NCBI RefSeq assembly: GCF_900106955.1 | Contig: NZ_FNNI01000008.1 | Location: forward strand, 62,001-126,000 | DNA length: 64,000 bases | From: Aidingimonas halophila | Lineage (GTDB): Bacteria > Pseudomonadota > Gammaproteobacteria > Pseudomonadales > Halomonadaceae | Direction: 5' to 3' | Shown here: positions 1,862 through 20,514 of the stretch, piece by piece | Layout: each line of letters begins with the position of its first letter | How positions within the stretch are numbered: position 1 is the first letter of the stretch | Notes under the pieces: model-generated | Database searches by the model: none | What the model was told of the DNA's origin: nothing | The model's input: only the letters and a program-made list of their open reading frames with translations | Translations under genes and position numbers: made by a program

Positions 1862-4549
1862 ATGTTGCAATATCGGTATTGGGCAAAAGCCAAACCAGGA
1901 GGCGAGGGAGCACAATGCCATTTGCTGCCTTACCACAGTCTGGACGTGGCTGCTGTGGGCTGGCTGCTTCTGGCACCGGAGCGCCCACTGACGCAATTGC
2001 TGGCGGCTCGCCTCGATTTGCCTCCCGAAACACTTCGGCGTTTGTTCGTTTTCTTACTCGGCTTGCATGATATCGGCAAGTTTTCGCGGGCATTTCAAGG
2101 TTTGGCTAGCCCAGAGGGCGTCAGTCTGGTGCCTGCACTTGAGCGCTACGCGTATACCGCGCGCCATGACCAGTTGGGGGCCGTACTATGGCAAGCCCAC
2201 TGGTTGGAATGGTTGCGTGATGACACGCTGCAATGGCCTGGCGATATTCCTCCACGTCGTGAACGTCATCAGTTGAGTGAGACCTTGCGTGTATTGCTGG
2301 CGCCGATGTTCGGCCACCATGGCCAGCCAGTGGAAGCCGGTAATAGTGAGGTGCGAGCATTTTTCGGTCATGACGGTGTTGCCGATGATATCGAGGCCGC
2401 ACGTCAGTTCGTCAACGATTGGGCGGCTTTCATGCCTCCGTCATGGCCAGTGGAAAAACTGGTATCCGAGGCGTGGTGTGACACTCTGCGTGCCTTGAGT
2501 TGGACCATTGCGGGATGGGCTACCCTCAGCGATTGGCTGGGGTCGAATCGCGATCATTTCGCGTATTGCCAAGATGAGATGCCGCTGGGTGACTACTGGC
2601 CAATGGCCCTGGAGCGTGCGCAGCAAGCGCTCCAGGAAAGTGGCTTTGCGCAGACTCCCGAGCCGGTAGCGTATGCGGGTCTATCCAGTTGGTTTGACGG
2701 AAAGTCGATTACGCCGACCCCGCTTCAGCGGGAAGCCGAAACCTTGCCCATCGGTGATGGCCCCCAGTTGTTCATCCTCGAGGACGTGACTGGCGCTGGC
2801 AAGACCGAGGCGGCTTGCATCCTCGCCCAGCGGTTGCTGGCAGCGGGTCACGGTGAGGGGCTGTACTTCGCCTTGCCGACCATGGCGACCTCCAATGCCA
2901 TGTATGAACGATTGGGGAATTTGCATCAACGCTTCTATGCCGAGGTATCTCGGCCTTCCTTCGTGCTGGCCCATGGCGCCCGTGAACTGAACGATACCTT
3001 CGTGAAGGCCGTGGCAGCGGAGCAGCCGGGGGATCAGGACTACGCGGCCGATGACATGACGGCTACCACGCGCTGCAATCGCTGGTTGGCTGACTCACGT
3101 AAAAAATCACTGCTGGCCGATGTTGGAGTAGGCACCATCGATCAGGCATTGATGGGACTATTGCCTTTTCGCCATCAGACGCTGCGTCTTTATGGCTTGG
3201 CGCGCAAGGTGTTAATCGTCGATGAAGTGCATGCCTACGACCATTACATGCAGACGCTGCTCAGCCAACTGCTGGCGCATCATGCCCGGCAGGGCGGTAG
3301 CGCCATTTTGCTGACAGCGACCTTGCCACGCGGCATGCGCGAAGAGCTCGCGATGGCATGGAGCCAGGGGCTGGGACAAGGGCCGGCGTCGCTTCAGGCG
3401 GATAAGTTCCCGTTGCTGACTCAAGTTGGCCCGGAAGGCCAGCGCGAAGTCCCGCTCGCCACGCGCCCGGAGGTAACGCGGGAGGTCGGCATCGACTGGC
3501 TGACCACGGAGGAGCAGGCGCTTGAGATGGTGATGGCAGCGGTGGACTCGGGAGAATGCGTCGCCTGGGTACGCAACACCGTGGATGACGCCATCCGAGC
3601 CTACGAGCAGCTCTGTCAGCGCCATCCCGATCCCGAGCGGTGCCTATTGTTTCATAGCCGATTCGCCATGGCGGACCGTCAGCGCATTGAATCGAGTGTT
3701 ATTGAGCGGCTGGGCAAACCTTCCACCGCCGGCCAGCGCCAGGGGCAGGTGTTGATCAGTACGCAAGTCTTCCAGGAATCGCTCGATTGTGATGTTGACC
3801 ATATGGTCAGCGACCTGGCGCCCATCGACCTGCTGATCCAGCGTGCTGGCCGTTTGCAGCGTCATGAGCGGGGCGTGCGTCGTACACCAGAGGTTTCCAT
3901 CCTTGCCCCTGAGTGGTGCGAAACGCCGGATGCTCAATGGCTCAAGCGTGTGCTACCAGGTACGCAGGCTGTGTACCGCGATACATCTCTACTGTGGCTG
4001 ACCCAGCGTGTATTGCGTGAGTTGGGCGCGATTCGGATGCCCGACGAGGCACGTGCCCTGATCGAAAGCGTTTACGGGAAGGTCGCCGGCCTAGTGCCGG
4101 ATGACTTGCAGGAGGCACGTTGGGAGCAGCGTGGAATGCAAGGCGTAGCGGTCTCGATGGCCAACTTCAATGCACTCGATCTGGCGCAGGGCTATCTTCG
4201 GCACCCTGAGTTCGACCAATGGCAAGAAGAGCAGGAAATCGGCACGCGCTTGGTGGATGAGCCGACGGTCAATGTCGTTCTACTCAAGTACACGCCCGGT
4301 GATGAGCTATCGCTTTGGGCCGAGGACGAGCGTCACGCCGACATGCTCAGCCAGGTCAAACTGCGCCAGAGCCAGGCGCAAAAGCTGGCGGAGCTACCGT
4401 GCGATTTCCAGTCTCAATGGGAAACCCTTCAGGAGCGTTACAAGGCGCTGCGCTTCACCCAGCCTTGGCTGGTCGCAGCCGATTCCAACTGTACCTATGA
4501 CGCCCAGTGGGGCGTGAGGTTTTCAAGGGAAGGAGAAAATCCCCGCTGA
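1862..4549 (+). CDS. cas3: CRISPR-associated helicase/nuclease Cas3 (type I-E)
   Basis: Cas3 is the effector nuclease-helicase recruited by Cascade to unwind and degrade target DNA. The 895-residue protein has an N-terminal HD nuclease domain (H25 in PYHSLD, the HD pair H69-D70 in LHDIGKFS, and a later GHHGQP). An SF2 helicase follows, with Walker A DVTGAGKTEA near 308, the DEVH box near 453, SAILLTATLP, and a motif VI region ending LIQRAGRLQRH. Length and motif order match single-chain type I-E Cas3. The gene is transcribed separately from the Cascade operon, which starts 343 bp downstream. Its last codons and TGA lie inside a CRISPR-like hairpin; the stop codon falls in the 4-nt loop. Confidence 0.97.
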   Translation: MLQYRYWAKAKPGGEGAQCHLLPYHSLDVAAVGWLLLAPERPLTQLLAARLDLPPETLRRLFVFLLGLHDIGKFSRAFQGLASPEGVSLVPALERYAYTARHDQLGAVLWQAHWLEWLRDDTLQWPGDIPPRRERHQLSETLRVLLAPMFGHHGQPVEAGNSEVRAFFGHDGVADDIEAARQFVNDWAAFMPPSWPVEKLVSEAWCDTLRALSWTIAGWATLSDWLGSNRDHFAYCQDEMPLGDYWPMALERAQQALQESGFAQTPEPVAYAGLSSWFDGKSITPTPLQREAETLPIGDGPQLFILEDVTGAGKTEAACILAQRLLAAGHGEGLYFALPTMATSNAMYERLGNLHQRFYAEVSRPSFVLAHGARELNDTFVKAVAAEQPGDQDYAADDMTATTRCNRWLADSRKKSLLADVGVGTIDQALMGLLPFRHQTLRLYGLARKVLIVDEVHAYDHYMQTLLSQLLAHHARQGGSAILLTATLPRGMREELAMAWSQGLGQGPASLQADKFPLLTQVGPEGQREVPLATRPEVTREVGIDWLTTEEQALEMVMAAVDSGECVAWVRNTVDDAIRAYEQLCQRHPDPERCLLFHSRFAMADRQRIESSVIERLGKPSTAGQRQGQVLISTQVFQESLDCDVDHMVSDLAPIDLLIQRAGRLQRHERGVRRTPEVSILAPEWCETPDAQWLKRVLPGTQAVYRDTSLLWLTQRVLRELGAIRMPDEARALIESVYGKVAGLVPDDLQEARWEQRGMQGVAVSMANFNALDLAQGYLRHPEFDQWQEEQEIGTRLVDEPTVNVVLLKYTPGDELSLWAEDERHADMLSQVKLRQSQAQKLAELPCDFQSQWETLQERYKALRFTQPWLVAADSNCTYDAQWGVRFSREGENPR

Positions 4550-4610
4550 CGCGGGGAACGGGTTGGCGTATAGGCCAGTAACGGGTCATCCCCATTTAGA
4601 TGAGGAACCG
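4533..4610 (-). ncRNA. Degenerate mini-CRISPR, candidate CreR/CreA-like Cascade-guiding RNA
   Basis: Read on the minus strand there are two 29-nt pseudo-repeats around a 20-nt guide. Pseudo-repeat 1 (4610-4582) keeps a 6-bp stem CCTCAT/ATGGGG (one G-U pair) with a 4-nt loop CTAA. It ends in an 8-nt handle ATGACCCG, comparable to the array handle CTCAACCG. The guide is 4581-4562. Pseudo-repeat 2 (4561-4533) has the intact type I-E stem CCCCGC/GCGGGG with loop GTCA, but its 3' tail has lost the AACCG motif, as terminal repeats often do. The unit is antisense to the cas genes and overlaps the cas3 stop codon. Guide positions 1-14 match a nearby site next to an AAG PAM. Sequence and folding are directly visible; transcription and function are inferred from CreA/CreR RNAs of other type I systems. 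No clear promoter was found for it. Confidence 0.75.
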
Positions 4611-4683
4611 TGCCGATGATCTCACTCTTTGGGTTTGAGCGTCCACGCGAGAGTCTTTTAGATCATGCTCTACGTGTTTTTAG

Positions 4684-4700
4684 GTTTAGGCTAGTAACTT
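4684..4700 (-). promoter_or_regulatory. Predicted Cascade binding site for the mini-CRISPR guide
   Basis: On the minus strand, 4700-4698 reads AAG, the canonical type I-E PAM. It is followed at 4697-4684 by TTACTAGCCTAAAC. The mini-CRISPR guide begins TTACTGGCCTATAC. Twelve of 14 positions agree and the two mismatches are positions 6 and 12, which are the flipped-out bases that do not pair in Cascade R-loops. Beyond position 14 the match decays, so binding without Cas3 cleavage is expected. The site lies about 65 bp upstream of the small frame at 4762 and 195 bp upstream of cas8e, where a bound Cascade would block transcription. Confidence 0.7.
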
Positions 4701-4727
4701 GCATTAAGTTGTTGGTCGAGGTTATCC
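4699..4727 (+). promoter_or_regulatory. Possible weak promoter of the Cascade operon
   Basis: TTGCAT (4699-4704) and TTATCC (4722-4727), 17 bp apart, are the best-placed -35/-10 pair I can see for cas8e and the small upstream frame. The -10 is poor. A TGTTAT at 4734-4739 is an alternative -10. The -35 would overlap the PAM of the predicted Cascade binding site. Confidence 0.25.
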
Positions 4728-4761
4728 TCAGGCTGTTATGTGCTTATGAGGAGCTCTGGTC

Positions 4762-4893
4762 GTGCGTAACTGGCTTGAGGAAGCGTTCTGGAAGATTGGC
4801 GAATGGGACTGGGTGAGCATCGTCGTGAAGACTGCCTGTTTCTCTATCCCGCGAGTGGTTGTTCGTCTCATTAAAAGGAGGGAAAAGAGGTAA
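4762..4893 (+). CDS. Small 43-residue open frame coupled to cas8e
   Basis: A GTG start sits 8 nt after GAGGAG (4748-4753). The frame runs 43 codons to a TAA sharing its last base with the cas8e ATG (TAATG), so translation of the two is probably coupled. The peptide begins MRNWLEEAFWKIGEWDW, has four Trp in the first 17 residues, then a hydrophobic stretch WVSIVVKTACFSI and a basic tail RLIKRREKR. This makes it amphipathic and toxin- or membrane-peptide-like. The last codons include AGG AGG and AGG, rare Arg codons, but they also form the ribosome site of cas8e. I recognise no family. It could be a toxin guarded by the adjacent mini-CRISPR, a leader peptide for cas8e, or simply a translated spacer. 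Confidence 0.45.
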   Translation: MRNWLEEAFWKIGEWDWVSIVVKTACFSIPRVVVRLIKRREKR

Positions 4894-6584
4894 TGAACCT
4901 GCTCAACGATCCATGGCTGCCTTTCCTGACCAGGGAAGGCGCCACCGTTTACCGACCGCCTTGCGCAGTAGCCGACCCCGAGATTACCGATCTCGCGCTG
5001 CCCCGGGCGGATTTCCAGGGGGCCGCCTACCAGTTCCTGATTGGCTTGTTGCAAACCGCGTTGCCGCCGCAAGACAACGGCGAATGGCTGGATCGCTTTA
5101 TTGAGCCACCCGGCGCCGATGAGTTGACGGCGGCTTTTGCGCCTCTTACTGCCGCCTTCGAGCTGAAAGGCGATGGCCCTCGCTTTATGCAGGACCTAGA
5201 CTCGCTCGATGACGTTAAGGAGGCCACTGTCAGTGGGCTATTGATCGATGCGCCTGGGGCGAATGGTATCAAGAACAACACTGATTTCTTCGTCAAACGT
5301 GGGCGGGTCGAGACGATGTGCGAGGACTGCGCCGCCTTGGCGCTGTTCACCATGCAGATCAATGCACCGGCTGGTGGGGCGGGCATTCGCGTCGGTCTGC
5401 GAGGCGGCGGACCATTGACCACACTGGTATTGCCGGAGGCAGCCGATGCTAGCCTGTGGTCTCGTCTATGGCTGAATGTGTTGACGCCCAAGGCGCTGAC
5501 GCGGTCCGGGCAAGTATGGCAAGCACCACACGTTGATGATGACGCCTTGTTCCTGTGGATGGCACCGACCCGAGTCAGTGACAAGAAGGGCACGGAAGTC
5601 CTGCCCGACGGCATGCATCCACTGCATCCTTATTGGTCGATGCCGCGCCGTTTCCGGCTGCTGTTCGAGGATGCCCCGTGTCGTTGCGATATCTGTGGGC
5701 GGGATGCCACTCGCGTTGTACATCGTATCCGTGCCAAAAAACAAGGTGCCAACTACGACGGGCCTTGGCTGCATCCACTGACCCCGTATCGCCGTGATCC
5801 CAAAAAGCCGGACGAGCCGCCACTTTCCATCAAGGGGCAGCCGGGCGGCTTGGGATATCAGCATTGGCCGAACCTGATACTGCACGACCCCGACACTAGT
5901 GGTGCACTCCCTGCCGGGGTAGTGCAGGACTATATCGCTAAAAAAGTGATGTTGGTTGATGAGGAGCGTCGTGCAGGAGAGAACCTTGCCGCACTGCTCA
6001 AGCATGCTCGTCTATGGGCCTTCGGCTATGACATGGACAACATGAAACCCCGGGGCTGGTACAGCGTCGAGATGCCATTGGTGGCTGTGCCGCCCGCGCA
6101 ACAGGAGCGGCTGCGTGACTGGGTGCAGCGTTTCACCGAACTAGCACGTCAGATCGCCTGGATGGTGCGTACTCAGGTCAAGAACGCCTGGTTCGCTCGT
6201 CCTTCCGAGGCCAAAGGTGATATGAGCCATATCGACCAACAGTTCTATGACGCCACGCAGAGCGCATTTTATCAGGTGCTGTTAGAGCTGCAGCAGGCGC
6301 TTCAGAGCCCTGAACCTACCGCACATATGCCCTCCGGCGTTGCCGAGCGTTGGTTTCGAACGCTCAGGCACCAGGCGCTGGCACAGTTTGAAACGCAAGC
6401 CTTGAGTGGTGCGCTGGAAGCCATGGACTTGCAGCGTGCCACGGCGGCACATCGCCAGTTGTTGAGCTTTCTGGGCGGGCATAGCAAGGGGAGCAAGGCC
6501 ATTCGTCAATTTGCCGCAGACGGTGGCTTTGCATTGAAGCAGCCAGCCGCTGAAGCGGTCGCCAATAAAGAGGGCATGTCATGA
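4893..6584 (+). CDS. cas8e: Cascade large subunit Cas8e (Cse1/CasA)
   Basis: This is the large subunit of type I-E Cascade, which reads the PAM and recruits Cas3. The 563-residue protein opens with the typical Cse1 N-terminus (MNLLNDPWLPFLTREG). It has a CEDCAALALF segment near residue 142 followed by the Gly-rich GLRGGGPLTTLV, a second Cys cluster CRCDICG, and a helical C-terminal part. It is somewhat longer than the E. coli protein (about 500). The start is supported by GGAGGG upstream and overlap with the small frame's TAA. The 3' end overlaps cse2 by 4 bp (ATGA). It is the first large gene of the cas8e-cas2 operon. Confidence 0.96.
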   Translation: MNLLNDPWLPFLTREGATVYRPPCAVADPEITDLALPRADFQGAAYQFLIGLLQTALPPQDNGEWLDRFIEPPGADELTAAFAPLTAAFELKGDGPRFMQDLDSLDDVKEATVSGLLIDAPGANGIKNNTDFFVKRGRVETMCEDCAALALFTMQINAPAGGAGIRVGLRGGGPLTTLVLPEAADASLWSRLWLNVLTPKALTRSGQVWQAPHVDDDALFLWMAPTRVSDKKGTEVLPDGMHPLHPYWSMPRRFRLLFEDAPCRCDICGRDATRVVHRIRAKKQGANYDGPWLHPLTPYRRDPKKPDEPPLSIKGQPGGLGYQHWPNLILHDPDTSGALPAGVVQDYIAKKVMLVDEERRAGENLAALLKHARLWAFGYDMDNMKPRGWYSVEMPLVAVPPAQQERLRDWVQRFTELARQIAWMVRTQVKNAWFARPSEAKGDMSHIDQQFYDATQSAFYQVLLELQQALQSPEPTAHMPSGVAERWFRTLRHQALAQFETQALSGALEAMDLQRATAAHRQLLSFLGGHSKGSKAIRQFAADGGFALKQPAAEAVANKEGMS

Positions 6585-7240
6585 CAGAAACGGAGACTAC
6601 AGCCGCACAACAAGAAGCGCCACCGCGCGTTCCCGAGCGGTTGTTTGCCATCGAGCGTCCTGAGGCCGACGCGCTGCGGCGTTGGTGGCAGCGTTTGACG
6701 TTGCCTGCCGTGGAATTGAAGGCGCAGACCGACGCGCCTCCTTGGCCCAAGGGGGTACGCGCCACCTTGCGGCGTTGCGACACCATCGAGGCGGCCATGC
6801 TGACCGAGGCTTTCCGTCATTTGTGGAACCAGCTTCCTACCGGGGACGAAAGCAACTCGTGGCAGCGTGATAGGTCACTTCAGGTTTGGGCCTGCATTGC
6901 GCTGGTGGTGGCCGAGCTTCGGGAAGAAAAGCCGGATAGACCGCTGGGGGCATGTCTCGGGGAGCAAAAGCGTGAAACCGGCAAGCCGCACATGAGTGAG
7001 CTGCGTTTCCAACAACTGATGGCCTGTCGTACGCCGGAAGAATTGGTCCAGCGTTTGCGCCGCGCGCTGGCGCTGGTTGACAGGCGAGGTGTAAGCGCCG
7101 TGCATCTCGCTGACAACATCGCGTTGTGGTGGCGTGAACACCACGGAATGTCATCAGCGAAACCGTCTCGTCGGCTGGGTTTTATCTGGGCCAACGATTA
7201 CTTCGGCGCCACAGCGGGTTACCGCCACGAAAACGATTAA
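6581..7240 (+). CDS. casB: Cascade small subunit Cse2 (Cas11e/CasB)
   Basis: The small subunit forms a dimer in Cascade that stabilises the displaced DNA strand. The 219-residue helical protein has the Cse2 patterns LRRWWQRLTLP, RATLRRCDTIEAAMLTEAF and, near the end, NIALWWREH. Its short acidic extension at the N-terminus makes it longer than the 160-residue E. coli version. The ATG overlaps the cas8e stop (ATGA). Identity rests on these motifs and on position between cas8e and cas7e. Confidence 0.93.
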   Translation: MTETETTAAQQEAPPRVPERLFAIERPEADALRRWWQRLTLPAVELKAQTDAPPWPKGVRATLRRCDTIEAAMLTEAFRHLWNQLPTGDESNSWQRDRSLQVWACIALVVAELREEKPDRPLGACLGEQKRETGKPHMSELRFQQLMACRTPEELVQRLRRALALVDRRGVSAVHLADNIALWWREHHGMSSAKPSRRLGFIWANDYFGATAGYRHEND

Positions 7241-7285
7241 GACATTATTTTCTGAATCCAAGTTACTAACGCTAGGGAGCCAATC

Positions 7286-8359
7286 ATGAGCCATTTCATT
7301 CAACTTCACCTGCTGACGTCTTATCCGCCCGCTAATCTCAATCGTGATGATCTCGGCCGGCCCAAAACCGCCTTGATGGGGGGCGCTAAACGCCTACGTG
7401 TCTCGTCACAAAGTTTGAAGCGCACTTGGCGCACTTCTGCTTTATTCGAAGAAGCGGTGGGTCAGCATCGCGGGCACCGCACTAAGCGTGTAGGCATTGA
7501 GGCTGAAAAACGGCTGATTGAAAAGGGTGTTGATGATAAGAAAGCGCGAGAGTGGGCCACGGAGATCGCCAAGGTCTTCGGTGACGTACCCAAGAATGAA
7601 TTGGAAACTAGTCAGTTGGTTCACATCGGCCCCGAGGAGCAGGCCGCGGTCGATGCGCTGGTTGAGACGCTGGCCGCTGAAAATCGTGCGCCAGAGAAGG
7701 AAGATCTCACCCTGCTTCGTGACAAGCCCACGGCCGTTGATATTGCGCTGTTCGGTCGCATGCTGGCGGCGGAACCAAAATTCAACGTCGAGGCTGCTTG
7801 CCAAGTCGCGCATGCGATTACCGTGCATGCCGCCGAGGTCGAGGATGACTACTTTACGGCGGTAGACGACTTGAACGCGGGCGATGAGCACCGCGGTGCG
7901 GCACACGTTGGTGAAGCGGGATTCGGCGCAGGGTTGTTTTACAGCTATATCTGCATTGACCGTCAGCAATTGATCGAGAACTTGCAGGGTAACGAAGAGC
8001 TTGCCGACCGCGCCATCGCGGCATTGGTGGAGGCCTCGGTCAAGACATCGCCCAAGGGCAAACAGAACAGCTTTGGTTCCCGCGCGCATGCCAGCTATGT
8101 GCTGGCCGAGAAGGGCGACCAGCAACCCCGTTCACTCTCGACTGCTTTCCTGCGTCCTGTCATGGGTCAGGATCAATCATTGGATGCCATCAATCGACTA
8201 GAGCGTCAGGCCAAGGCTTTCGACGAAGCATATGATGTCGGCGCCGATCGTCGCTTCATTGTCACGGCAGAGCCCGATTATTCGGCTCCCCAACTGACGG
8301 GCAACGTAGCGACGGGGAGCTTCTCGGCTTTGGTCGACTTCCTTGGCGACGACCGATAA
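7286..8359 (+). CDS. cas7e: Cascade backbone subunit Cas7e (Cse4/CasC)
   Basis: Six copies of Cas7e normally line the crRNA spacer in Cascade. The 357-residue protein starts FIQLHLLTSYPPANLNRDDLG, has KTALMGGAKRLRVSSQSLKR (the conserved RNA-binding start of the family), and GAAHVGEAGFGAGLFYSYICID in the middle. The length matches E. coli (363). A GGGAG ribosome site precedes the ATG, 45 bp after cse2. It is separated by 10 bp from cas5e. Confidence 0.97.
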   Translation: MSHFIQLHLLTSYPPANLNRDDLGRPKTALMGGAKRLRVSSQSLKRTWRTSALFEEAVGQHRGHRTKRVGIEAEKRLIEKGVDDKKAREWATEIAKVFGDVPKNELETSQLVHIGPEEQAAVDALVETLAAENRAPEKEDLTLLRDKPTAVDIALFGRMLAAEPKFNVEAACQVAHAITVHAAEVEDDYFTAVDDLNAGDEHRGAAHVGEAGFGAGLFYSYICIDRQQLIENLQGNEELADRAIAALVEASVKTSPKGKQNSFGSRAHASYVLAEKGDQQPRSLSTAFLRPVMGQDQSLDAINRLERQAKAFDEAYDVGADRRFIVTAEPDYSAPQLTGNVATGSFSALVDFLGDDR

Positions 8360-8369
8360 GGGGGCCGTC

Positions 8370-9122
8370 ATGACGGAATATCTAGTCTTCCGGCTCTATG
8401 CGCCGCTCGCGAGTTGGGGCGAGGCAGCGGTGGGCGAGTCGCGACCCTCTGCCACATATCCGGGACGAGGTGCGATTATCGGGTTACTTGGGGCGGCGCT
8501 AGGTGTGCGGCGCGACGACGATGAGCGACAGCGTCAATTGCGCGAAAGCGTTTGTATCGCGGTCAAACAGCGCTCGCCGGGAACATTGTTGCGCGACTAC
8601 CACACGGCGCAGGTGCCAGCGGCGCAGTCGAAAGTGACATACCATACCCGGCGCGATGAGCTGAATGCTCCACGCAAAGTCATCAATACCATTCTTTCCA
8701 GTCGTGACTATCGTTGCGACGGTTTGTGGACCGTTGCCGTGTGGCTGACTTCGCAGGCCACGCTCACTCTGAACGAGATGGAGCAGGCATTGAAAACGCC
8801 ATATTTTCCGCTCTATCTAGGGCGCAAGGCATGCCCACCTGCCGGGCCCTTGGCGCCTCGACGAGAAACATGTGGATGCTTGCTTGATGCCTTGGATACG
8901 TCGTTTCCCCCGTTGTGCGGAACGGCGGATGAGGAGCGCCGCGTGCTTAATCTCCCCGACGAAACGTTGTACGCCTGGGAGGGCGATCCAAAACATTTGG
9001 ATGGCTCCTTGGAAGGTAACGAATCCAATGATGTGTGGGATGAACCGCTCCATCGCCGGCGTTGGCAATTCGGGCCACGTGCCGAGTTCCGGCGTATTGT
9101 TGGTCAAGAGGAGGGCCGCTGA
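8370..9122 (+). CDS. cas5e: Cascade subunit Cas5e (CasD)
   Basis: Cas5e caps the crRNA 5' handle in Cascade. The 250-residue protein begins TEYLVFRLYAPLASWGEAAVGESRPSA, the RAMP-type fold signature with the characteristic SWG and PS turns, then YPGRGAIIGLLGAALG. I chose the ATG at 8370 because GGGGG lies 5-9 nt upstream and the N-terminus then fits the family. An earlier in-frame ATG (8343) would lie inside cas7e. The TGA shares its last base with the cas6e ATG. Confidence 0.95.
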   Translation: MTEYLVFRLYAPLASWGEAAVGESRPSATYPGRGAIIGLLGAALGVRRDDDERQRQLRESVCIAVKQRSPGTLLRDYHTAQVPAAQSKVTYHTRRDELNAPRKVINTILSSRDYRCDGLWTVAVWLTSQATLTLNEMEQALKTPYFPLYLGRKACPPAGPLAPRRETCGCLLDALDTSFPPLCGTADEERRVLNLPDETLYAWEGDPKHLDGSLEGNESNDVWDEPLHRRRWQFGPRAEFRRIVGQEEGR

Positions 9123-9814
9123 TGTATCTATCTCGCGTCAAGGTCGATCTCAACGGCCTCTCTCGTGAAGCCTTGTTCGAGATCATGGGCGGTGGTGCTT
9201 ATGCTGCCCACCAACTACTCTGGCGTTTATTTCCAGAGTACCAGGGATCGAGGCCGTTTCTGTTTCGCCAGGAAATGGAAGAGCCCGAGAATGGTGGGAC
9301 ACCGCGCGGCCTGCCGTTGTTCTATGTGCTCTCCGATCGGGAACCGGCTCCTCCCCCTGGATTGCTCGAGGCTCAGTGCAAACCGTTCACTCCGGTGCTC
9401 GAAGCGGGCGAGCAACTCGCTTTCCGGTTGCGTGCCAATCCCACTGTGGCGAAGTCGGTGGCGGGGAAGCGTGGTAAGCGCGCCGATGTCTTGATGGCAG
9501 CCAAGTACCCCTTCGAGGCGGGCAAGGAACGGACCAGCCAGGCCTGTATTGAGGCGATGGATGAGGCCGCTAGAGAGTGGCTGTCAGAACGCGCCGAGTC
9601 TTGTGGATTCCGTTTGCCGGTCAAGCCCGAAGTGGGGGGCTATCGTCAGCATGCTTTGCCAAAAGGCGAGGGCCGTCCCATTCGCTTTTCCAGCGTCGAT
9701 TATGAAGGCTTACTGGAAGTGACCGACCCAGGGCGCCTGACCGAAACGTTGGCACATGGGGTCGGGCGTGCCAAGGCCTTTGGCTGTGGCCTGATAATGT
9801 TGCGAAGGCCATAG
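9122..9814 (+). CDS. cas6e: CRISPR pre-crRNA endoribonuclease Cas6e (CasE)
   Basis: Cas6e cuts the pre-crRNA at the base of each repeat stem and stays bound to the hairpin. The 230-residue protein starts MYLSRVKVDL, has the probable catalytic histidine H30 in AYAAHQLLWRLF, and ends with the Gly-rich loop GVGRAKAFGCGLIML of the second RRM-like fold. I chose the ATG at 9122 (TGATG overlap with cas5e) over an upstream in-frame ATG at 9062 inside cas5e. It would also have to process the mini-CRISPR hairpins, which keep the same stem geometry. Confidence 0.96.
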   Translation: MYLSRVKVDLNGLSREALFEIMGGGAYAAHQLLWRLFPEYQGSRPFLFRQEMEEPENGGTPRGLPLFYVLSDREPAPPPGLLEAQCKPFTPVLEAGEQLAFRLRANPTVAKSVAGKRGKRADVLMAAKYPFEAGKERTSQACIEAMDEAAREWLSERAESCGFRLPVKPEVGGYRQHALPKGEGRPIRFSSVDYEGLLEVTDPGRLTETLAHGVGRAKAFGCGLIMLRRP

Positions 9815-9822
9815 GAGGCGCC

Positions 9823-11039
<1,217 letters not shown>

Positions 11040-11149: not shown

Positions 11150-14100
11150 CCGATCCCCGCAGGCGCGGGGCTCAACCGAAACCGTCATGACCGCACAGCC
11201 TGACACCGATCCGATCCCCGCAGGCGCGGGGCTCAACCGTTCCCCGGCATTACGGCGTCGACATGGCCAGCCCGATCCCCGCAGGCGCGGGGCTCAACCG
11301 GATCGACCGGTGCTGCTGGAGAAGGGACAGCACCGATCCCCGCAGGCGCGGGGCTCAACCGTAGACGCCATCCTTTCCAATCTCGATCAACGTCCGATCC
11401 CCGCAGGCGCGGGGCTCAACCGCCAGCCTGAGATCCTTTCGGGAAGATGCCGTGCCGATCCCCGCAGGCGCGGGGCTCAACCGCGAGATCCAGACCTATG
11501 AGCAAGAACAGGCTGCCGATCCCCGCAGGCGCGGGGCTCAACCGGCTCAGGCGGTTGCCAAGATGATCGATCCGCCCCGATCCCCGCAGGCGCGGGGCTC
11601 AACCGAACTCCTTACCATAGCGATCAACCAGCGCAGTCCGATCCCCGCAGGCGCGGGGCTCAACCGCCTACAGCGTCCCGAAGCACTGGATTATTACGCC
11701 GATCCCCGCAGGCGCGGGGCTCAACCGCTGAATGTGGACGATACGCCCTGATTTGGCATCCGATCCCCGCAGGCGCGGGGCTCAACCGCGCCCGCTGCGT
11801 GCCGTGGGCAATGTCCTCGGCCGATCCCCGCAGGCGCGGGGCTCAACCGATTCATGATTTCATGAAATACACCAAGCCCCACCGATCCCCGCAGGCGCGG
11901 GGCTCAACCGGCTTGTCACGGAACGTGGTCTGCCACACGCCACCGATCCCCGCAGGCGCGGGGCTCAACCGTGATTGGCGAACTCAGCATTATGGATTCG
12001 ACGCCGATCCCCGCAGGCGCGGGGCTCAACCGGCCTCATCGAGCCCACCGAGCACCTCGAGCTGCCGATCCCCGCAGGCGCGGGGCTCAACCGCTCGCTG
12101 TATAGCTGGTGCAGGGCGTTGTACACCGATCCCCGCAGGCGCGGGGCTCAACCGCATGATATCATCAACAGAACAGCGCACCTTGGCCGATCCCCGCAGG
12201 CGCGGGGCTCAACCGTTTTGGTACGCAACTGATCGCTGGTGTTTGCACCGATCCCCGCAGGCGCGGGGCTCAACCGGGAGCGGACAAATGGTCGTCGCCG
12301 TCTCTGTCCCGATCCCCGCAGGCGCGGGGCTCAACCGCATGCGATCGGCTTCATTCATCCTTCACCCGCCCGATCCCCGCAGGCGCGGGGCTCAACCGGA
12401 CGACTACCGAAATACAGGGATCGACAGCAACCGATCCCCGCAGGCGCGGGGCTCAACCGACCTGGAGCGCCAGCCGTAATCATGGGCGTGTCCGATCCCC
12501 GCAGGCGCGGGGCTCAACCGCTTGATTAACGATAGCTTCTTGCGCTTCACAGCCGATCCCCGCAGGCGCGGGGCTCAACCGTTTTACGAGGTCGTAGAGG
12601 GCGGAACTCGGGACCGATCCCCGCAGGCGCGGGGCTCAACCGGATTCGCAGCACGACATATAGCGGAATTGCGGCCGATCCCCGCAGGCGCGGGGCTCAA
12701 CCGTATCCTGACTTCTCCATACTCCACTTTCTGGGCCGATCCCCGCAGGCGCGGGGCTCAACCGGATCATGGGCGCGGCGCCGGTGCGAGTCAGCGCCGA
12801 TCCCCGCAGGCGCGGGGCTCAACCGGTGCCGCCCACGCTGGGGAACAGCCACGCAGGCCGATCCCCGCAGGCGCGGGGCTCAACCAGTGACGCGAGGCAT
12901 CGCGCCGTGGTTTGCGTACCGATCCCCGCAGGCGCGGGGCTCAACCGGCCAAGCGTGAAGCTGAGGAAGAACGGCAGCCCGATCCCCGCAGGCGCGGGGC
13001 TCAACCGCGCCCATTCCAGGCAGTTCTCGATGGCATCCGCCGATCCCCGCAGGCGCGGGGCTCAACCGCAATCGACTAATGCGCCAGGCCATCCGCAACT
13101 CCGATCCCCGCAGGCGCGGGGCTCAACCGATCACTGAACATACCGAGCCCCCTAGGCTCAACCGATCCCCGCAGGCGCGGGGCTCAACCGCTTTTGCTTT
13201 GCGCGTTAGCGGAGAATCCATGCCGATCCCCGCAGGCGCGGGGCTCAACCGGATATTGACGTAGGGACTGTCCCTGCTACAGGCCGATCCCCGCAGGCGC
13301 GGGGCTCAACCGCCCGCCTCCTGTTACCAGCCAATGGAATGCAACCGATCCCCGCAGGCGCGGGGCTCAACCGTATCGCGCGAAGCGTTCGACCACCTTC
13401 GCTCCCCGATCCCCGCAGGCGCGGGGCTCAACCGCCTTGGTGGGCCCGGCGACGGATAGCCCTTCCCCGATCCCCGCAGGCGCGGGGCTCAACCGTCGCG
13501 TGAGATCGAGCGAAAGGTCGTGCCCGTCCGATCCCCGCAGGCGCGGGGCTCAACCGGGTGGCGGTTGGTGCGGGATGATGGCATTAGACCGATCCCCGCA
13601 GGCGCGGGGCTCAACCTTCGCCGGCGTCAGTGAAATCGACGCCGAGCCCCCGATCCCCGCAGGCGCGGGGCTCAACCGCCGAGAAGCGCGCCGAAAAATT
13701 CAACGAATCGCCGATCCCCGCAGGCGCGGGGCTCAACCGACGGCGTCTCAGTCTGGAATAATGTGTTTCCGCCGATCCCCGCAGGCGCGGGGCTCAACCG
13801 TTCAATGGCCTTTTGGCGATGACTGATGAAGCCCGATCCCCGCAGGCGCGGGGCTCAACCGGCCGTCATCGGCAAGGAAAGCAGTGCGAGGGTCCGATCC
13901 CCGCAGGCGCGGGGCTCAACCGGCGCGCACCGCCACGAAGGCGCGGGCACGGGCCCGATCCCCGCAGGCGCGGGGCTCAACCGTTCTCTCTGTTCCTCAG
14001 CACCCAGGTTCCCAACCGATCCCCGCAGGCGTGGGGCTCAACCGCCAGTACAGCCACACAGCATCGAGCACGCCACCCGATCCCCGCAGGCGCGGGGCTC

Positions 14101-14227
14101 AACCGATTCCTTGCACAAGCGGGGTTTGAGGTCAATGCCGATCCCCGCAGGCGCGGGGCTCAACCGTACCCCAGGCACAAATTGGCGGCCGATGAAGACC
14201 GATCCCCGCAGGTGCGGGGCTTAATTA
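11150..14227 (+). CRISPR. Type I-E CRISPR array, 51 repeats and 50 spacers
   Basis: The 29-nt repeat starts CCGATCCCCGC, has loop AGGC, and ends GCGGGG then CTCAACCG. The stem is CCCCGC/GCGGGG and the last 8 nt give the crRNA handle. Pitch is 61 bp (32-nt spacers) throughout, except for one 31-nt spacer at 12948-12978. Orientation is + : the leader is on the left and the rightmost repeat (14199-14227) is degenerate (GGTGCGGGG then CTTAATTA). Variant repeats begin at 12858 (last base A), 13589 (last base T) and 14016 (one C to T in the stem). I noticed no duplicated spacer. The intact cas1-cas2 and leader suggest the array can still grow. Confidence 0.99.
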
Positions 14228-16171: not shown

Positions 16172-16645
16172 ATGACGGTATCGGCTCGCCAATCGCTGAC
16201 CATCTTCCTGGGCTGGTTGCTGCTGGTGGCGTTGGTCTCGCTGAGCGGGATCGCTACGCCACCGGGAGCGTGGTACGCCGCCCTGGAAAAACCGCCCTTC
16301 ACACCCCCGAATCTGCTGTTCCCGATCGCGTGGACACTGCTGTATCTACTGATGGCGGTGGCGGCTTGGCGTGTCACCTGCTTGTCGCCACCGGGCGGCC
16401 GCGTGCATTTTCTGTGGCCGTTCGTCGCGCAGTTGGTGGCCAATGCAATGTGGTCTCTGCTGTTTTTCGGCCTTCACTGGATGCTGGTGGCGCTGCTCGA
16501 TCTGTTCGTGCTGCTGGCATTGCTGGGGCTGTCGATCCGTCGTTTCCGGCGGGTGTCGAAACTGGCGTCGTGGCTGTTGGTGCCATATCTGCTGTGGGTA
16601 GTCTTCGCCGGCTACCTCAACACGGCGCTGTGGTGGCTCAATTGA
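16172..16645 (+). CDS. tspO: TspO/MBR family tryptophan-rich sensory protein
   Basis: TspO is a five-helix membrane protein that binds porphyrins and is linked to oxidative and stress responses in proteobacteria. The 157-residue protein shows the family signatures WYAALEKPPFTPPNLLFPIAW near residue 34, NAMWSLLFFGLHW, and the C-terminal PYLLWVVFAGYLNTALWWLN. The 3' end overlaps the convergent deacetylase gene by 8 bp, so the two may interfere or share no terminator. Confidence 0.93.
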   Translation: MTVSARQSLTIFLGWLLLVALVSLSGIATPPGAWYAALEKPPFTPPNLLFPIAWTLLYLLMAVAAWRVTCLSPPGGRVHFLWPFVAQLVANAMWSLLFFGLHWMLVALLDLFVLLALLGLSIRRFRRVSKLASWLLVPYLLWVVFAGYLNTALWWLN

Positions 16646-17336
16646 GGTGTCGCTGGTCGTAACGCCGGGATTGCCAGTCGCCCGCCAGTAGCCGCTGCAT
16701 GTCGCCGGCCAGCCGCAGTTCGGGATCGTAGGGATGGATGCCGATGCGTAAGGGGCGATTGCGGTGTCGTGCCTGCCAGACCTGGACTCGGTTCCATTGT
16801 CGAAGTGCATGCTCCCGCCAGGCGGTGTCGGCTTCGAAGCCTACCAACGGCAGAGGGTCGAGATGGCCGCTCTGTGGATCGAGCAAGCCGCGAGTCACTT
16901 CGATGCGCTGATAGGGCTGCGTCCGGAGCCTGGACCTGGGAATCGAGCCCAACGCCCAGGCAGGCGGTACATAGGTGCTTGGCGCTTCGAGGCCGTTTTT
17001 ACTGAACCAGGCGGCGGAGCGTCGCATGAGCGTGTCGATGCGGGGGCCGTCCAGGGCCAGGTGCTCGGCGGCCCGGCGTGATATCAAAGCGGCATGCAGA
17101 CGGTGATAGAGTCCGCCCAGGCGTGAGGCGTGGTGGTGCCAGCCATGGGCTGCCAGTTCCATGCCTGATTGCTGCCAGTGGGCGAGCGTATCGATGTGTT
17201 CGTCCTGCCATGCGAGTCCGGGAACCACCAGCAGGGTAATGGCGTCGTGTCCCTGGTGTTGCAGGCTGTCGATGAGCGCCGCCACGCGAGGCATGGTGTG
17301 CGGCATGACATCGTGTATCGAGACTAGTGCTCTCAT
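16638..17336 (-). CDS. DUF2334-like polysaccharide deacetylase family protein
   Basis: A 232-residue protein starting RALVSIHDVMP, where H8-D9 is the family's metal/nucleophile turn, then ELAAHGWHHH and YVPPAWALG. This is the pattern of DUF2334-type deacetylases of the NodB superfamily. The substrate is unknown, probably an acetylated envelope sugar. I chose the ATG at 17336 because it overlaps the upstream glycosyltransferase stop (ATGA); a longer frame would begin inside that gene. It is the last gene of the four-gene envelope operon 20090-16638. Confidence 0.8.
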   Translation of the reverse strand: MRALVSIHDVMPHTMPRVAALIDSLQHQGHDAITLLVVPGLAWQDEHIDTLAHWQQSGMELAAHGWHHHASRLGGLYHRLHAALISRRAAEHLALDGPRIDTLMRRSAAWFSKNGLEAPSTYVPPAWALGSIPRSRLRTQPYQRIEVTRGLLDPQSGHLDPLPLVGFEADTAWREHALRQWNRVQVWQARHRNRPLRIGIHPYDPELRLAGDMQRLLAGDWQSRRYDQRHLN

Positions 17337-18466
17337 GAGCGGTTGCGGGCCTGTTCGGTCAGCACGCTCAGCCACTGTTCCAGCGTGTGATCGTTGAGTT
17401 GCAAGGCGGCATTCCGTGCGTGGGCCGCTACGGTGGCCATTGAGCCGGGCGGGTCGCTCTGCAGGCGTGCGATGGCATCACTCAGCGACTCCTGGTTTCT
17501 GATCTTGTAAAGCCCGGCTGCCAGTTGGGTCCAGTCATGGATGCCGGCGTTCTCCGATACCAGTGCCGGGCGGCCGCGTGCCATGGCCTCGAGGGCGATG
17601 GAGCCGAAGGTCTCCTGGTGCGAGGGCAACACCAGCAGACTCGACTCGTCGATCAGTGCTCGCAGGGAGTCGCGATCCAGCCAGCCCCGGTAGTCGAGAT
17701 TGGGCAGTTCCGCCGCACCGGCTTCGACCCTGGCCTTCAACGGCCCGTCGCCACCGATCACGAAGCGGATCGAAGGCCATTGCCGAGCGGCGTCGAGAAT
17801 GGCGTCGATATTCTTTTCCGCGGCCAGCCGACCGGCGAAACAGATCTGTTGCAGGCTATCCGGCAGCGGTGCCGGAGGCGTGTCCGCGAAGCTGCGCGCC
17901 AGCGGTGTCCCCATGACGTCGTACTGCTGGGCTCCCAGCTTCATGACGGTATCGCTCAGAGAGCGATTGTTGATCAGTACCGTACTGCTTCTCTGGCAAA
18001 GGAAGCGATTGGCGGAGCTCAGGCAGCCGGAGATCAGATGCCGTTTGAAGGGGCGCCAGTAGAGGTCGGCGAGCCCTTCGAAGTGGGTGTGGTAGGCGGA
18101 GATGAAGCCGCACTGGTTGCGACGGGCCATCCAGGGGCCGAGCAGGCCGTAGGGCCCGGGTGTCACGCTGACGATGACATGTGGCCGAATGCGCGACAGG
18201 GCACGTCGGATTTCCATGGGGTTCGGCGCCATGAGTTGCTGGGTGGCATCGCCCGGCAACGGGAAACGAAAGGGGTGGAAACCACTGGAGAGCCGCGGCT
18301 GCAGGATGTCGGCGCAATCGATGCGTGAGCGTAACTGTTCGATCAGGTCGTGATAGTAGGCGCCGGTGCCATTGCGTTCGGCCAAGGAGTCGGAGAAGAA
18401 CGCGACACGCAGTCGATGAGTGGCGATGGATGGTTCAGGCTGGGCTAGTGTGGCGATATCGTTCAC
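17333..18466 (-). CDS. GT4-family glycosyltransferase
   Basis: A 377-residue GT-B-fold glycosyltransferase. The N-terminal domain starts RVAFFSDSLAERNGTGAYYHDL (acceptor side, Gly-rich loop). The C-terminal domain has ICFAGRLAAEKNIDAILDA, FVIGGDGPLKARVE and the nucleotide-sugar E-x7-E motif in HQETFGSIALEAM. It probably transfers a sugar to a lipid or glycan at the cytoplasmic face. Both ends overlap neighbours by 4 bp, so it is translated with the sulfotransferase and deacetylase. Confidence 0.9.
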   Translation of the reverse strand: MNDIATLAQPEPSIATHRLRVAFFSDSLAERNGTGAYYHDLIEQLRSRIDCADILQPRLSSGFHPFRFPLPGDATQQLMAPNPMEIRRALSRIRPHVIVSVTPGPYGLLGPWMARRNQCGFISAYHTHFEGLADLYWRPFKRHLISGCLSSANRFLCQRSSTVLINNRSLSDTVMKLGAQQYDVMGTPLARSFADTPPAPLPDSLQQICFAGRLAAEKNIDAILDAARQWPSIRFVIGGDGPLKARVEAGAAELPNLDYRGWLDRDSLRALIDESSLLVLPSHQETFGSIALEAMARGRPALVSENAGIHDWTQLAAGLYKIRNQESLSDAIARLQSDPPGSMATVAAHARNAALQLNDHTLEQWLSVLTEQARNRS

Positions 18467-19641
18467 TCGGTGATCCTGATTCGCTGTGGTAGTGCGATGA
18501 CTTGTTGATAACCCGGCCGCATGGCGGCTTCCATCGTATCATGCGGTATCGCCAGTGACTCGACCGTGTGCCGGTGCTGACTGGCGGTGCCGGCCGGCAA
18601 TCGCTGGATGTGATCCGCCAGCTCGGGGCCCATGGGCTCCCCGATGCAAGCCAGTGCCCGCATGATAATCATGGACGGTCGTTCTCGCATGTCGTCCATG
18701 TCGATGACTACCCCCTGCGACAGTGACCAGTTAGCCATGGTTTCTCCCAGATGGTCGAGCGTCTCGGCGAACAGATTAAGGAAATATTGTTGAAATTTGA
18801 TGTTATCCACGGAGGTACCGAACAACGGCCCGGCACTGGCGACGGAACTGAGCTGTGAACTGAGAGCGGTGGCGGGGTCGCGCACGCAGATCATGAACCG
18901 GGCCTCGGGAAACTGGCTGTGCAGCCCGGCAAGCCAGGACCCGAAGGCGGCGTTCTTCGACAGCAGGCGTCGTTGCTGACCATCGGCGTACAGGTGACGT
19001 TGCAGACTGCGCTCGTAGAAACGTAACAGGCGTCGGCGCCGGCCGGAGGGCATTCGGCGATCGAAATGGCCTAGCTCATACAGCCCCGGACTACCGGGAA
19101 ATATCAGCATCAGAATGAAGCACCCACCGGCGGGCAGCAGGGTCAGGTAATCCTCTTCCGCGGCGTTGAGGCCGACATCGTGGATGGCGGCGAAGTCGCC
19201 GGTCATCCGTCGTGTCAGGGTGTCCACGATCCGTCGACCCCAACCGCCCAGGGCTCGGTCGAGCTTGCCGAGCCCGCTCAGGAGCTTGCGCTGGGTGATC
19301 GAGGGAGCCAGCAGGGCCTCCCAGGTGGTGACCGTGGTATAGCGCTGGCTGTCCACGGCCAGGGTACGATGCAGGAAAGTGGTACCACTGCGAGGAATAC
19401 CGGTGATGAACAGCGCGCGGCCGACCTCGACGCGCCGGTAGCTCGGAAACAGGACCTCGTCCAGCAACAGGCAGAGGGCGTGTCCTGTCTGGACGAGCAA
19501 GAACAGAGGAAATCCCACCATCAGGAGCAGGGCGCGTCGGGGGCGCATCGGGGCACACGGGTCGCGCCAGGCAACCAGGGCGCGACCCCACCACCGCAGA
19601 TGCAGGGCCAGGCTTTCGAGCAGGGTGATGACCGTGGTCAT
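18463..19641 (-). CDS. Sulfotransferase family protein
   Basis: A 392-residue protein with a hydrophobic segment near residues 35-65 and a PAPS-dependent sulfotransferase core. GIPRSGTTFLHRTL (81-94) is the 5'-phosphosulfate loop, and ARFMICVRDPATALSS is the 3'-phosphate-binding strand-helix. It probably sulfates a sugar or lipid carried by the products of the neighbouring genes. I chose the ATG at 19641 because it overlaps the GtrA-like stop (ATGA). An open frame extends 15 codons further upstream into that gene. Confidence 0.88.
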   Translation of the reverse strand: MTTVITLLESLALHLRWWGRALVAWRDPCAPMRPRRALLLMVGFPLFLLVQTGHALCLLLDEVLFPSYRRVEVGRALFITGIPRSGTTFLHRTLAVDSQRYTTVTTWEALLAPSITQRKLLSGLGKLDRALGGWGRRIVDTLTRRMTGDFAAIHDVGLNAAEEDYLTLLPAGGCFILMLIFPGSPGLYELGHFDRRMPSGRRRRLLRFYERSLQRHLYADGQQRRLLSKNAAFGSWLAGLHSQFPEARFMICVRDPATALSSQLSSVASAGPLFGTSVDNIKFQQYFLNLFAETLDHLGETMANWSLSQGVVIDMDDMRERPSMIIMRALACIGEPMGPELADHIQRLPAGTASQHRHTVESLAIPHDTMEAAMRPGYQQVIALPQRIRITE

Positions 19642-20090
19642 GAGTGGTGGAACACCAGCTTGTGAGAGACGAAGAAGTTGAAGCACATACCGGCCACGCC
19701 GCCGATCCAGATACCCAGCAGAGGGAGCCAGAAGACCTTGTCCGGATTCAGGCCGGCTTGCCCACCCAGCAGGATGACGAGGGCAAAGAGGGCGTAATTG
19801 AGAACCCCGCCGGTGGCGTGGACGGCGAAAAAGCGCATCAGGTCACCGAGGATGCCACGCAGACGTTGGTAGAAGTGAAACGTGAAATGGCGGTTCAGGA
19901 AGTAGCCGACCGTCATCGCCAGGCCATACGAGATGACGCGAGACAGGTAAAGATTGAGATCGACCCCATCATGCAGCGTGTACAGGCCGGCAATGTCGAT
20001 CAGGGCGATGGTCCCGCCGACCAGAGCGAAACGCAGAAAGGTGGCGCGCCGACTGGTGGAATGAAGCAAGCGTTTCAACATGCGATCCAT
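19638..20090 (-). CDS. GtrA-like membrane protein
   Basis: GtrA-family proteins are small four-helix membrane proteins thought to flip polyprenyl-linked sugars. This one has about 150 residues. LRFALVGGTIALIDIAGLYTL, VGYFLNRHFTFHF (the family's RxxTF turn), and a final NFFVSHKLVFHHS are typical. I chose the ATG at 20090; the open frame continues upstream only to a TTG at 20177, and ATG 20081 is another option. It heads the operon with the sulfotransferase, glycosyltransferase and deacetylase. Confidence 0.82.
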   Translation of the reverse strand: MDRMLKRLLHSTSRRATFLRFALVGGTIALIDIAGLYTLHDGVDLNLYLSRVISYGLAMTVGYFLNRHFTFHFYQRLRGILGDLMRFFAVHATGGVLNYALFALVILLGGQAGLNPDKVFWLPLLGIWIGGVAGMCFNFFVSHKLVFHHS

Positions 20091-20265: not shown

Positions 20266-20514
20266 ATGTCTTACCAGATCGAAACGCGGCTCAATGGCAG
20301 CAACCCGGTCGTGCAAATCTGTGATGCCTCTTCGGGGTCGGTGAGGTTGGCATGGGAATACCCGCGCGAATTACCGGACCTCACCGCCGAGGATGAGGCC
20401 ATGTTGGCGCTGCGCCGGGAAGAAGCCGTGCATGAACTGTTTCGGCGCCTGTTCCTGTTGACGACGGAGCAGTATCTGAAGGGCGAGGTTACAGAGATAC
20501 CCGTAGAACGCTGA
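20266..20514 (+). CDS. Hypothetical 82-residue acidic protein
   Basis: ATG placed 5 nt after GGAGGT (20255-20260), a strong ribosome site, behind an AT-rich stretch (20200-20245) that probably holds its promoter. The protein is acidic, soluble, and predicted mostly helical in its second half (EEAVHELFRRLFLLTTEQYL). I recognise no family. Its last 26 bp overlap the convergent C45 gene. Confidence 0.65.
   Translation: MSYQIETRLNGSNPVVQICDASSGSVRLAWEYPRELPDLTAEDEAMLALRREEAVHELFRRLFLLTTEQYLKGEVTEIPVER

Follow-up and report, generated by a model that had tools for sequence, protein, structure and literature searches.

What does an operon that sets a sulfotransferase beside a glycosyltransferase and a deacetylase make, and which of its genes belong together? 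The locus that raises this question lies on a 64,000-nucleotide stretch of the Aidingimonas halophila contig NZ_FNNI01000008.1 (positions 62,001 to 126,000; the whole stretch is called the window below) and encodes a GtrA-type membrane protein, a sulfotransferase (STF), a GT4-family glycosyltransferase (GT4) and a DUF2334 N-deacetylase-like protein (DAC). A preliminary description had read it as a four-gene envelope operon whose products are probably made in fixed ratio and could build and export a sulfated, deacetylated glycolipid. A survey of related genomes revealed that the adjacency and order of STF, GT4 and DAC are conserved far beyond chance, and that GtrA is an optional add-on to this core. 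With moderate confidence, we favor a reading in which the three enzymes form a dedicated pathway for a sulfated amino-sugar glycolipid at the cytoplasmic face of the inner membrane.

Co-occurrence and gene order of the three core genes

Among 151 genomes of the Halomonadaceae, STF (E ≤ 1e-10) and GT4 (E ≤ 1e-40) were found in the same four, and DAC in those four plus one genome with a weak match of 24% identity. At the level of the order, 70 of 341 genomes had an STF match at E ≤ 1e-8, with a gap in the scores between 4.3e-51 and 2.4e-39. The 34 genomes above this gap (33 and the window's own) coincide exactly with the 34 of 341 in which GT4 is matched at E ≤ 1e-45. When the 33 strong loci other than the window's own were opened, the three genes stood together in 32 of them, the contig of the 33rd ending inside GT4. 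Subtracting the window's own genome and the 33 strong ones from the 70 matches leaves 36 genomes with a weaker STF; in the seven of these that were opened, neither GT4 nor DAC lies beside it.

Using a profile of 21 cassette STFs against 321 genomes of the class, we found 11 non-self genomes at E ≤ 1e-40. Eight of them carry the cassette, and the three weakest loci (L134 to L136) have no GT4 or DAC nearby. The corresponding search of 398 genomes of the phylum gave two matches, the window's own and one genome that had already been counted (G192). In most rows of the order, class and phylum searches, the best four or five first-look candidates per genome were scored, and absences are approximate. 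A search of 72,556 plasmid records with STF returned two matches, neither of them close (26.7% and 30.1% identity).

Counting all related loci opened above the score gap (n = 44), STF and GT4 occur together in 44/44 and DAC is present in 43/44, the last being cut by a contig end, while neither GT4 nor DAC is found beside STF in the ten loci opened below it. This gives 45 cassettes in all (the window, three from Halomonadaceae, 33 from the order, and eight from the class) under 17 family codes. Gene order, on which the preliminary description had staked its proposal, is kept across all 17. The genes outside the trio vary by lineage in the 36 order-level loci compared, so that the trio itself appears as the conserved unit. 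With 34 of the 341 sampled genomes of the order carrying it, the cassette is not a local curiosity. GtrA lies beside STF in only six of the 45 cassettes (the window, L092, L052 to L054, and L127), and the four-gene unit of the preliminary description is thus reduced to three genes that do co-occur.

Junctions, natural fusions and STF phylogeny

Each of the three junctions in the window is a four-base overlap, as had been described, although the one between STF and GT4 reads GTGA and not ATGA. Overlaps of this length are ordinary in bacterial operons. In the relatives, they are found at 14 of 44 STF-GT4 junctions and 9 of 43 GT4-DAC junctions, and apparent gaps of 28 to 322 bp separate STF from GT4 at 13 of 44; distances were measured to the nearest possible start codon, and two 'far' values at L128 are an artefact of the range in which start codons were sought on long frames. 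Because overlap lengths vary in this way among relatives, the idea that conserved overlaps fix the protein ratio was rejected.

Two loci carry STF and GT4 in a single frame. In L127, a frame of 1041 amino acids comprises STF (residues 281-657) and GT4 (678-1039), and in L129, a frame of 824 amino acids comprises STF (28-394) and GT4 (449-815). In the STF tree, which was built with a quick method and contains several long branches, the two fusions sit in separate places. The tree unites the 45 cassette STFs and sets them apart from 10 non-cassette STFs, with a Shimodaira-Hasegawa-like approximate likelihood ratio (SH-aLRT) support of 99. The two sets are also separated by profile scores of 364-587 bits versus 233-286 bits, the profile having been built from cassette members. 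The STF of L128, which comes from another order, groups with those of Halomonadaceae, which suggests horizontal transfer. Correlations between the STF, GT4 and DAC tree distances (Pearson 0.71-0.85) were set aside, since shared species history alone could produce them.

Relation to known amino-sugar lipid pathways

The best NCBIfam match of GT4 is the glucosaminyl-phosphatidylglycerol (GlcN-PG) synthase model NF053787 (E 1.5e-11; 43.8 bits, below the cut-off of 480), and that of DAC is the N-acetylglucosaminyl-phosphatidylglycerol (GlcNAc-PG) deacetylase model NF053788 (E 1.3e-18; 67.3 bits, below the cut-off of 280). These models belong with GpgSDF (PA4311-PA4313), the GlcN-PG pathway of Pseudomonas aeruginosa (PMC12713373). 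In that paper, transposon mutants and expression in Escherichia coli, which has PG and lacks gpgSDF, show the successive formation of GlcNAc-PG (m/z 950.59 for the 16:0/18:1 species) and GlcN-PG by GpgS and GpgD; complementation is reported only in the case of gpgD, and GpgF is a predicted flippase (PMC12713373). Like the cassette, GpgSDF places a GT4 enzyme and then a COG3233-type deacetylase in one operon. Unlike the cassette, it has no sulfotransferase named in its paper, and its GpgF is a UPF0104/AglD2-type flippase, where the window operon has a PF04138 GtrA protein (PMC12713373).

The scores place the two systems apart. Within 115 genomes of the order, 11 cassette DACs (window included) reach 37.7 to 71.8 bits against the deacetylase model, compared to 316.9 to 403.5 bits for the three GpgD proteins above the cut-off (G015, G192 and G228). 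Beside each of these three lie a GpgS-like GT4 and a protein of 328-350 amino acids in the place of gpgF. G192 and G228 carry both the cassette and the GpgD system, at separate loci. Judged by the scores far below the cut-offs and by these two genomes, the cassette is a separate system, paralogous to GpgSDF; that it might be gpgSDF plus one gene was rejected on the same two grounds.

A second comparison is offered by HexSDF of Clostridioides difficile, the aminohexosyl-hexosyldiradylglycerol pathway, in which a synthase, a deacetylase and a flippase likewise yield an amino-sugar glycolipid (PMC10128005). There, the annotations are monogalactosyldiacylglycerol synthase for HexS and MprF-like for HexF, compared to the GT4 and GtrA families in the window, and no word beginning with 'sulf' occurs in the main text of the paper (PMC10128005).

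Active-site residues and structural comparisons

Residues expected at the active sites are conserved in all three enzymes. In STF, G81, P83-R84-S85-G86-T87-T88, H154, E162-E163-D164, K229-N230, R254 and S262 are the same in 45/45 sequences. The motif GIPRSGTT spans residues 81-88; we take its PRSGTT to be the 5'-phosphosulfate loop for 3'-phosphoadenosine 5'-phosphosulfate (PAPS), and R254...S262 to be the 3'-phosphate motif. In GT4, K218, E285 and E293 are the same in 45/45 and in the three GpgS proteins (L121-L123); the two glutamates presumably form the EX7E motif, and all three residues presumably have a catalytic role. In DAC, H8, D9, H64, H68, E91, R197, H201 and D204 are the same in 44/44 and in the three GpgD proteins of the same loci, and we assume that H8-D9, H64-x3-H68 and H201 are metal-site or catalytic positions. 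The catalytic positions of GpgS and GpgD, as seen in these relatives, are thus common to the cassette enzymes.

Searches of the Protein Data Bank (PDB) with the STF profile retrieved 2zq5 (E 4.9e-21), 2z6v (3.5e-12) and tyrosylprotein sulfotransferases. The first two, which we take to be of mycobacterial origin, are Sulfotransfer_3-like structures deposited as uncharacterized, and they align to the cassette profile over the PAPS loop and around K229-N230. Unlike them, the cassette STFs have an invariant H154 and E162-E163-D164 and form a group of their own among the STFs compared. The DAC profile gave one weak match, the peptidoglycan deacetylase 3qbu (E 2.4e-4), and the GT4 profile matched 6kih first (7.3e-15), which is uninformative on the acceptor.

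Supply of activated sulfate

A link to sulfate is visible in three of the 44 opened loci, one with an APS (adenosine 5'-phosphosulfate) kinase and two with a SulP-family permease. In L083, the APS kinase gene (PF01583, 227.5 bits; TIGR00455, 258.9 bits, cut-off 138.7), whose product makes PAPS, ends four bases inside the STF frame. In L093 and L094, which match Halomonas halmophila and H. almeriensis, a divergent SulP-family permease adjoins the cassette (PF00916, 303.9 bits; TIGR00815 sulfate permease, 371.9 bits, just under the cut-off of 380.45); SulP proteins also carry anions other than sulfate. As the genome of the window has a CysNC-type gene, a 669-amino-acid frame whose first part is CysN and which includes an APS kinase domain, the organism can probably make PAPS. 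Further Sulfotransfer_3 matches lie in this genome outside the cassette, at C17:75727-79393 and C21:35557-35859, the latter about 16 kb from the CysNC-type gene.

A proposed pathway and its alternatives

From the family relations and the STF-GT4 fusions, we infer substrates, step order, topology, product, acceptor, sulfation site and flippase as follows. The acceptor of GT4 would be a membrane lipid, probably phosphatidylglycerol or diacylglycerol, and the transferred sugar an N-acetylhexosamine, probably N-acetylglucosamine (GlcNAc) supplied as UDP-GlcNAc. DAC would then remove the N-acetyl group and free the amine, and STF, drawing on cytosolic PAPS, would sulfate the sugar at either the freed amine or a hydroxyl. 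GtrA, where present, probably helps to flip the product, and elsewhere the flippase would be unlinked. The proposal of the preliminary description that the genes work together is supported in part, fixed ratio aside, by co-occurrence, adjacency and fusions, and by the curated families that GT4 and DAC match best (below cut-off), whose enzymes make a deacetylated amino-sugar lipid.

Several observations weigh against this pathway. In one locus (L069, genome G365), STF is divergent and about 1.7 kb away from GT4-DAC, and each fusion is known from one draft genome. No consistent flippase accompanies the trio, and GtrA as its standing flippase was rejected, being present in 6/45. The lipid nature of the acceptor is drawn from family relations, and the sugar and acceptor of GT4 may differ from those of GpgS and GpgD, given that the scores of GT4 and DAC are far below the cut-offs. 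STF has hydrophobic stretches near residues 38-60 (19-residue mean 1.85, modest) and 165-184 (1.78), nearly equal in hydropathy, so that a membrane anchor is no more than possible. The window STF alone found no match in the PDB at 1e-3 with phmmer, and its AlphaFold2 model, generated from the window protein and three orthologues, is too poor for fold comparison (pLDDT, the predicted local distance difference test, 38.2; predicted TM-score 0.33). In the open-access literature, no description of the cassette or of a sulfated GlcN-lipid was found among the matches listed.

A more specific and tentative version, which we consider rather doubtful, is that the product is an N-sulfoglucosaminyl phospholipid, in which the logic of heparan sulfate (N-deacetylation, then N-sulfation) is applied to a single membrane lipid. 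Wherever the sequence covers the DAC position, the gene is present (44/44 cassettes, counting the window); this fits N-sulfation and is no proof of it, because GT4 is equally constant. In NDST1, a deacetylase and a PAPS sulfotransferase act on the same GlcNAc, and its metal-site residues D320, H389 and H393 and the nearby H529, tested by mutation, resemble D9, H64, H68 and H201 of DAC (PMC10864358). However, NDST-type enzymes hold both activities in one polypeptide, whereas STF and DAC are separate in 44/44 cassettes that show both (window included), the cassette fusions join STF to GT4 and not to DAC, and the product is probably a lipid and not a polymer.

Among the readings that depart from a sulfated membrane glycolipid, an unlikely one is a polyprenyl-linked sulfated sugar that GtrA would flip for transfer to lipopolysaccharide or another surface polymer. 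GtrA is the flippase of GtrA/GtrB/Gtr serotype conversion and is present in the window, but it was not found in 39/45 cassettes. Moreover, such systems place beside GtrA both a GT2 enzyme of the GtrB type and a transferase specific to the serotype, and neither is seen among the neighbors of the window operon, to which the check for them was confined.

A soluble sulfated glucosaminide of low molecular weight, comparable to mycothiol or bacillithiol, is a similarly improbable product. Both of those routes use a GT4 enzyme (MshA, BshA) and a deacetylase in series, the same logic as here, and the cassette GT4 also scores 33.4 bits against the BshA model and 24 bits against the MshA model. Against this, the GlcN-PG pair (43.8 and 67.3 bits, below cut-off) remains the best NCBIfam match of both enzymes, and in six of the 45 cassettes a membrane protein stands beside STF.

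A further possibility, to which we give little credence, is that STF acts on a different envelope molecule and shares only its regulation with GT4 and DAC. The divergent and distant STF of L069 would agree with this; the two STF-GT4 fusions and the perfect co-occurrence of strong STF and GT4 matches in 341 genomes argue against it. Finally, ordinary co-transcription of unrelated envelope genes, for which four-base overlaps alone, common as they are in operons, could be cited, is very improbable and contradicted by the survey, with the order kept across 17 family codes in differing surroundings.

The operon in the window and its surroundings

The operon is encoded on the minus strand in the order GtrA, STF, GT4, DAC (Table 1). 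Its four genes had been correctly identified and placed in the preliminary description. STF scores 53.5 bits against its Pfam family, above the gathering score of 27. Compared to Aidingimonas lacisalsi XHU 5135 (L011), a member of the same genus that served as the reference for the coding test, all frames stay open, with amino acid identities of 77% (GtrA), 87% (STF), 80% (GT4) and 90% (DAC). Nucleotide differences fall mostly at the third codon position (0.10/0.05/0.26 per codon position for STF). By these two measures, the four behave as real genes. The start of GtrA, a candidate optional flippase, is an ATG at 20090 or 20081, the ATG of the A. lacisalsi protein being three codons later.

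Table 1. Genes of the operon and their junctions in the window
Feature	Coordinates	Strand	Family or remark
GtrA/DPMS-type membrane protein, 150 aa	19638..20090	-	PF04138, 62.8 bits, cut-off 26.1
STF, 392 aa, ATG start	18463..19641	-	PF13469 Sulfotransfer_3
GT4, 377 aa, GTG start	17333..18466	-	PF00534/PF13439
DAC, 232 aa, ATG start	16638..17336	-	PF10096 DUF2334, 47 bits, cut-off 26
Overlap GtrA/STF, 4 bases	19638..19641	-	ATGA
Overlap STF/GT4, 4 bases	18463..18466	-	GTGA
Overlap GT4/DAC, 4 bases	17333..17336	-	ATGA

In the window, the operon is flanked by genes for TspO, a C45 acyltransferase and a small PA4570-like protein, the last being a plus-strand open reading frame of 82 amino acids (20266-20514) that scores only 22 bits against the PA4570 family (cut-off 100). 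Further away, the window contains type I-E cas genes (1862-10743; Cas3e, Cas8e, Cas11e, Cas7e, Cas5e, Cas6e and Cas1e), followed by a CRISPR array (11150-14166) of 50 repeats, in which 48 of the 49 spacings are 61 bases long and one is 60.

Around the cassettes of other genomes, a TetR-type regulator is encoded about 90 bp upstream of STF and on the same strand in L067 (7202-7804) and L074 (5505-6110), Pfam having been run on L067. In L069, a fatty acid desaturase gene (9036-9917) precedes the divergent STF by about 38 bp, also on the same strand, a possible link to lipids.

Significance

The cassette is a variant of the GpgSD/HexSD type of pathway that is marked by a sulfotransferase. Various gammaproteobacteria carry the trio, halophilic relatives of Halomonas among them, and it offers a compact, testable system of three genes and two natural fusions, for which the donors UDP-GlcNAc and PAPS should be available in E. 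coli. Gene sets for amino-sugar lipids were reported only in 2023 and 2025 (PMC10128005, PMC12713373). Lipids of this kind, GlcN-PG among them, are expected to alter the charge of the membrane. The proposed product, if confirmed, would shift that charge in the opposite direction and add a new class to the bacterial sulfolipids, one whose gene set is identified. If the sulfate is indeed added to the nitrogen, a zwitterionic lipid of the GlcN-PG type would be turned into one with two negative charges, which might suit high salt.

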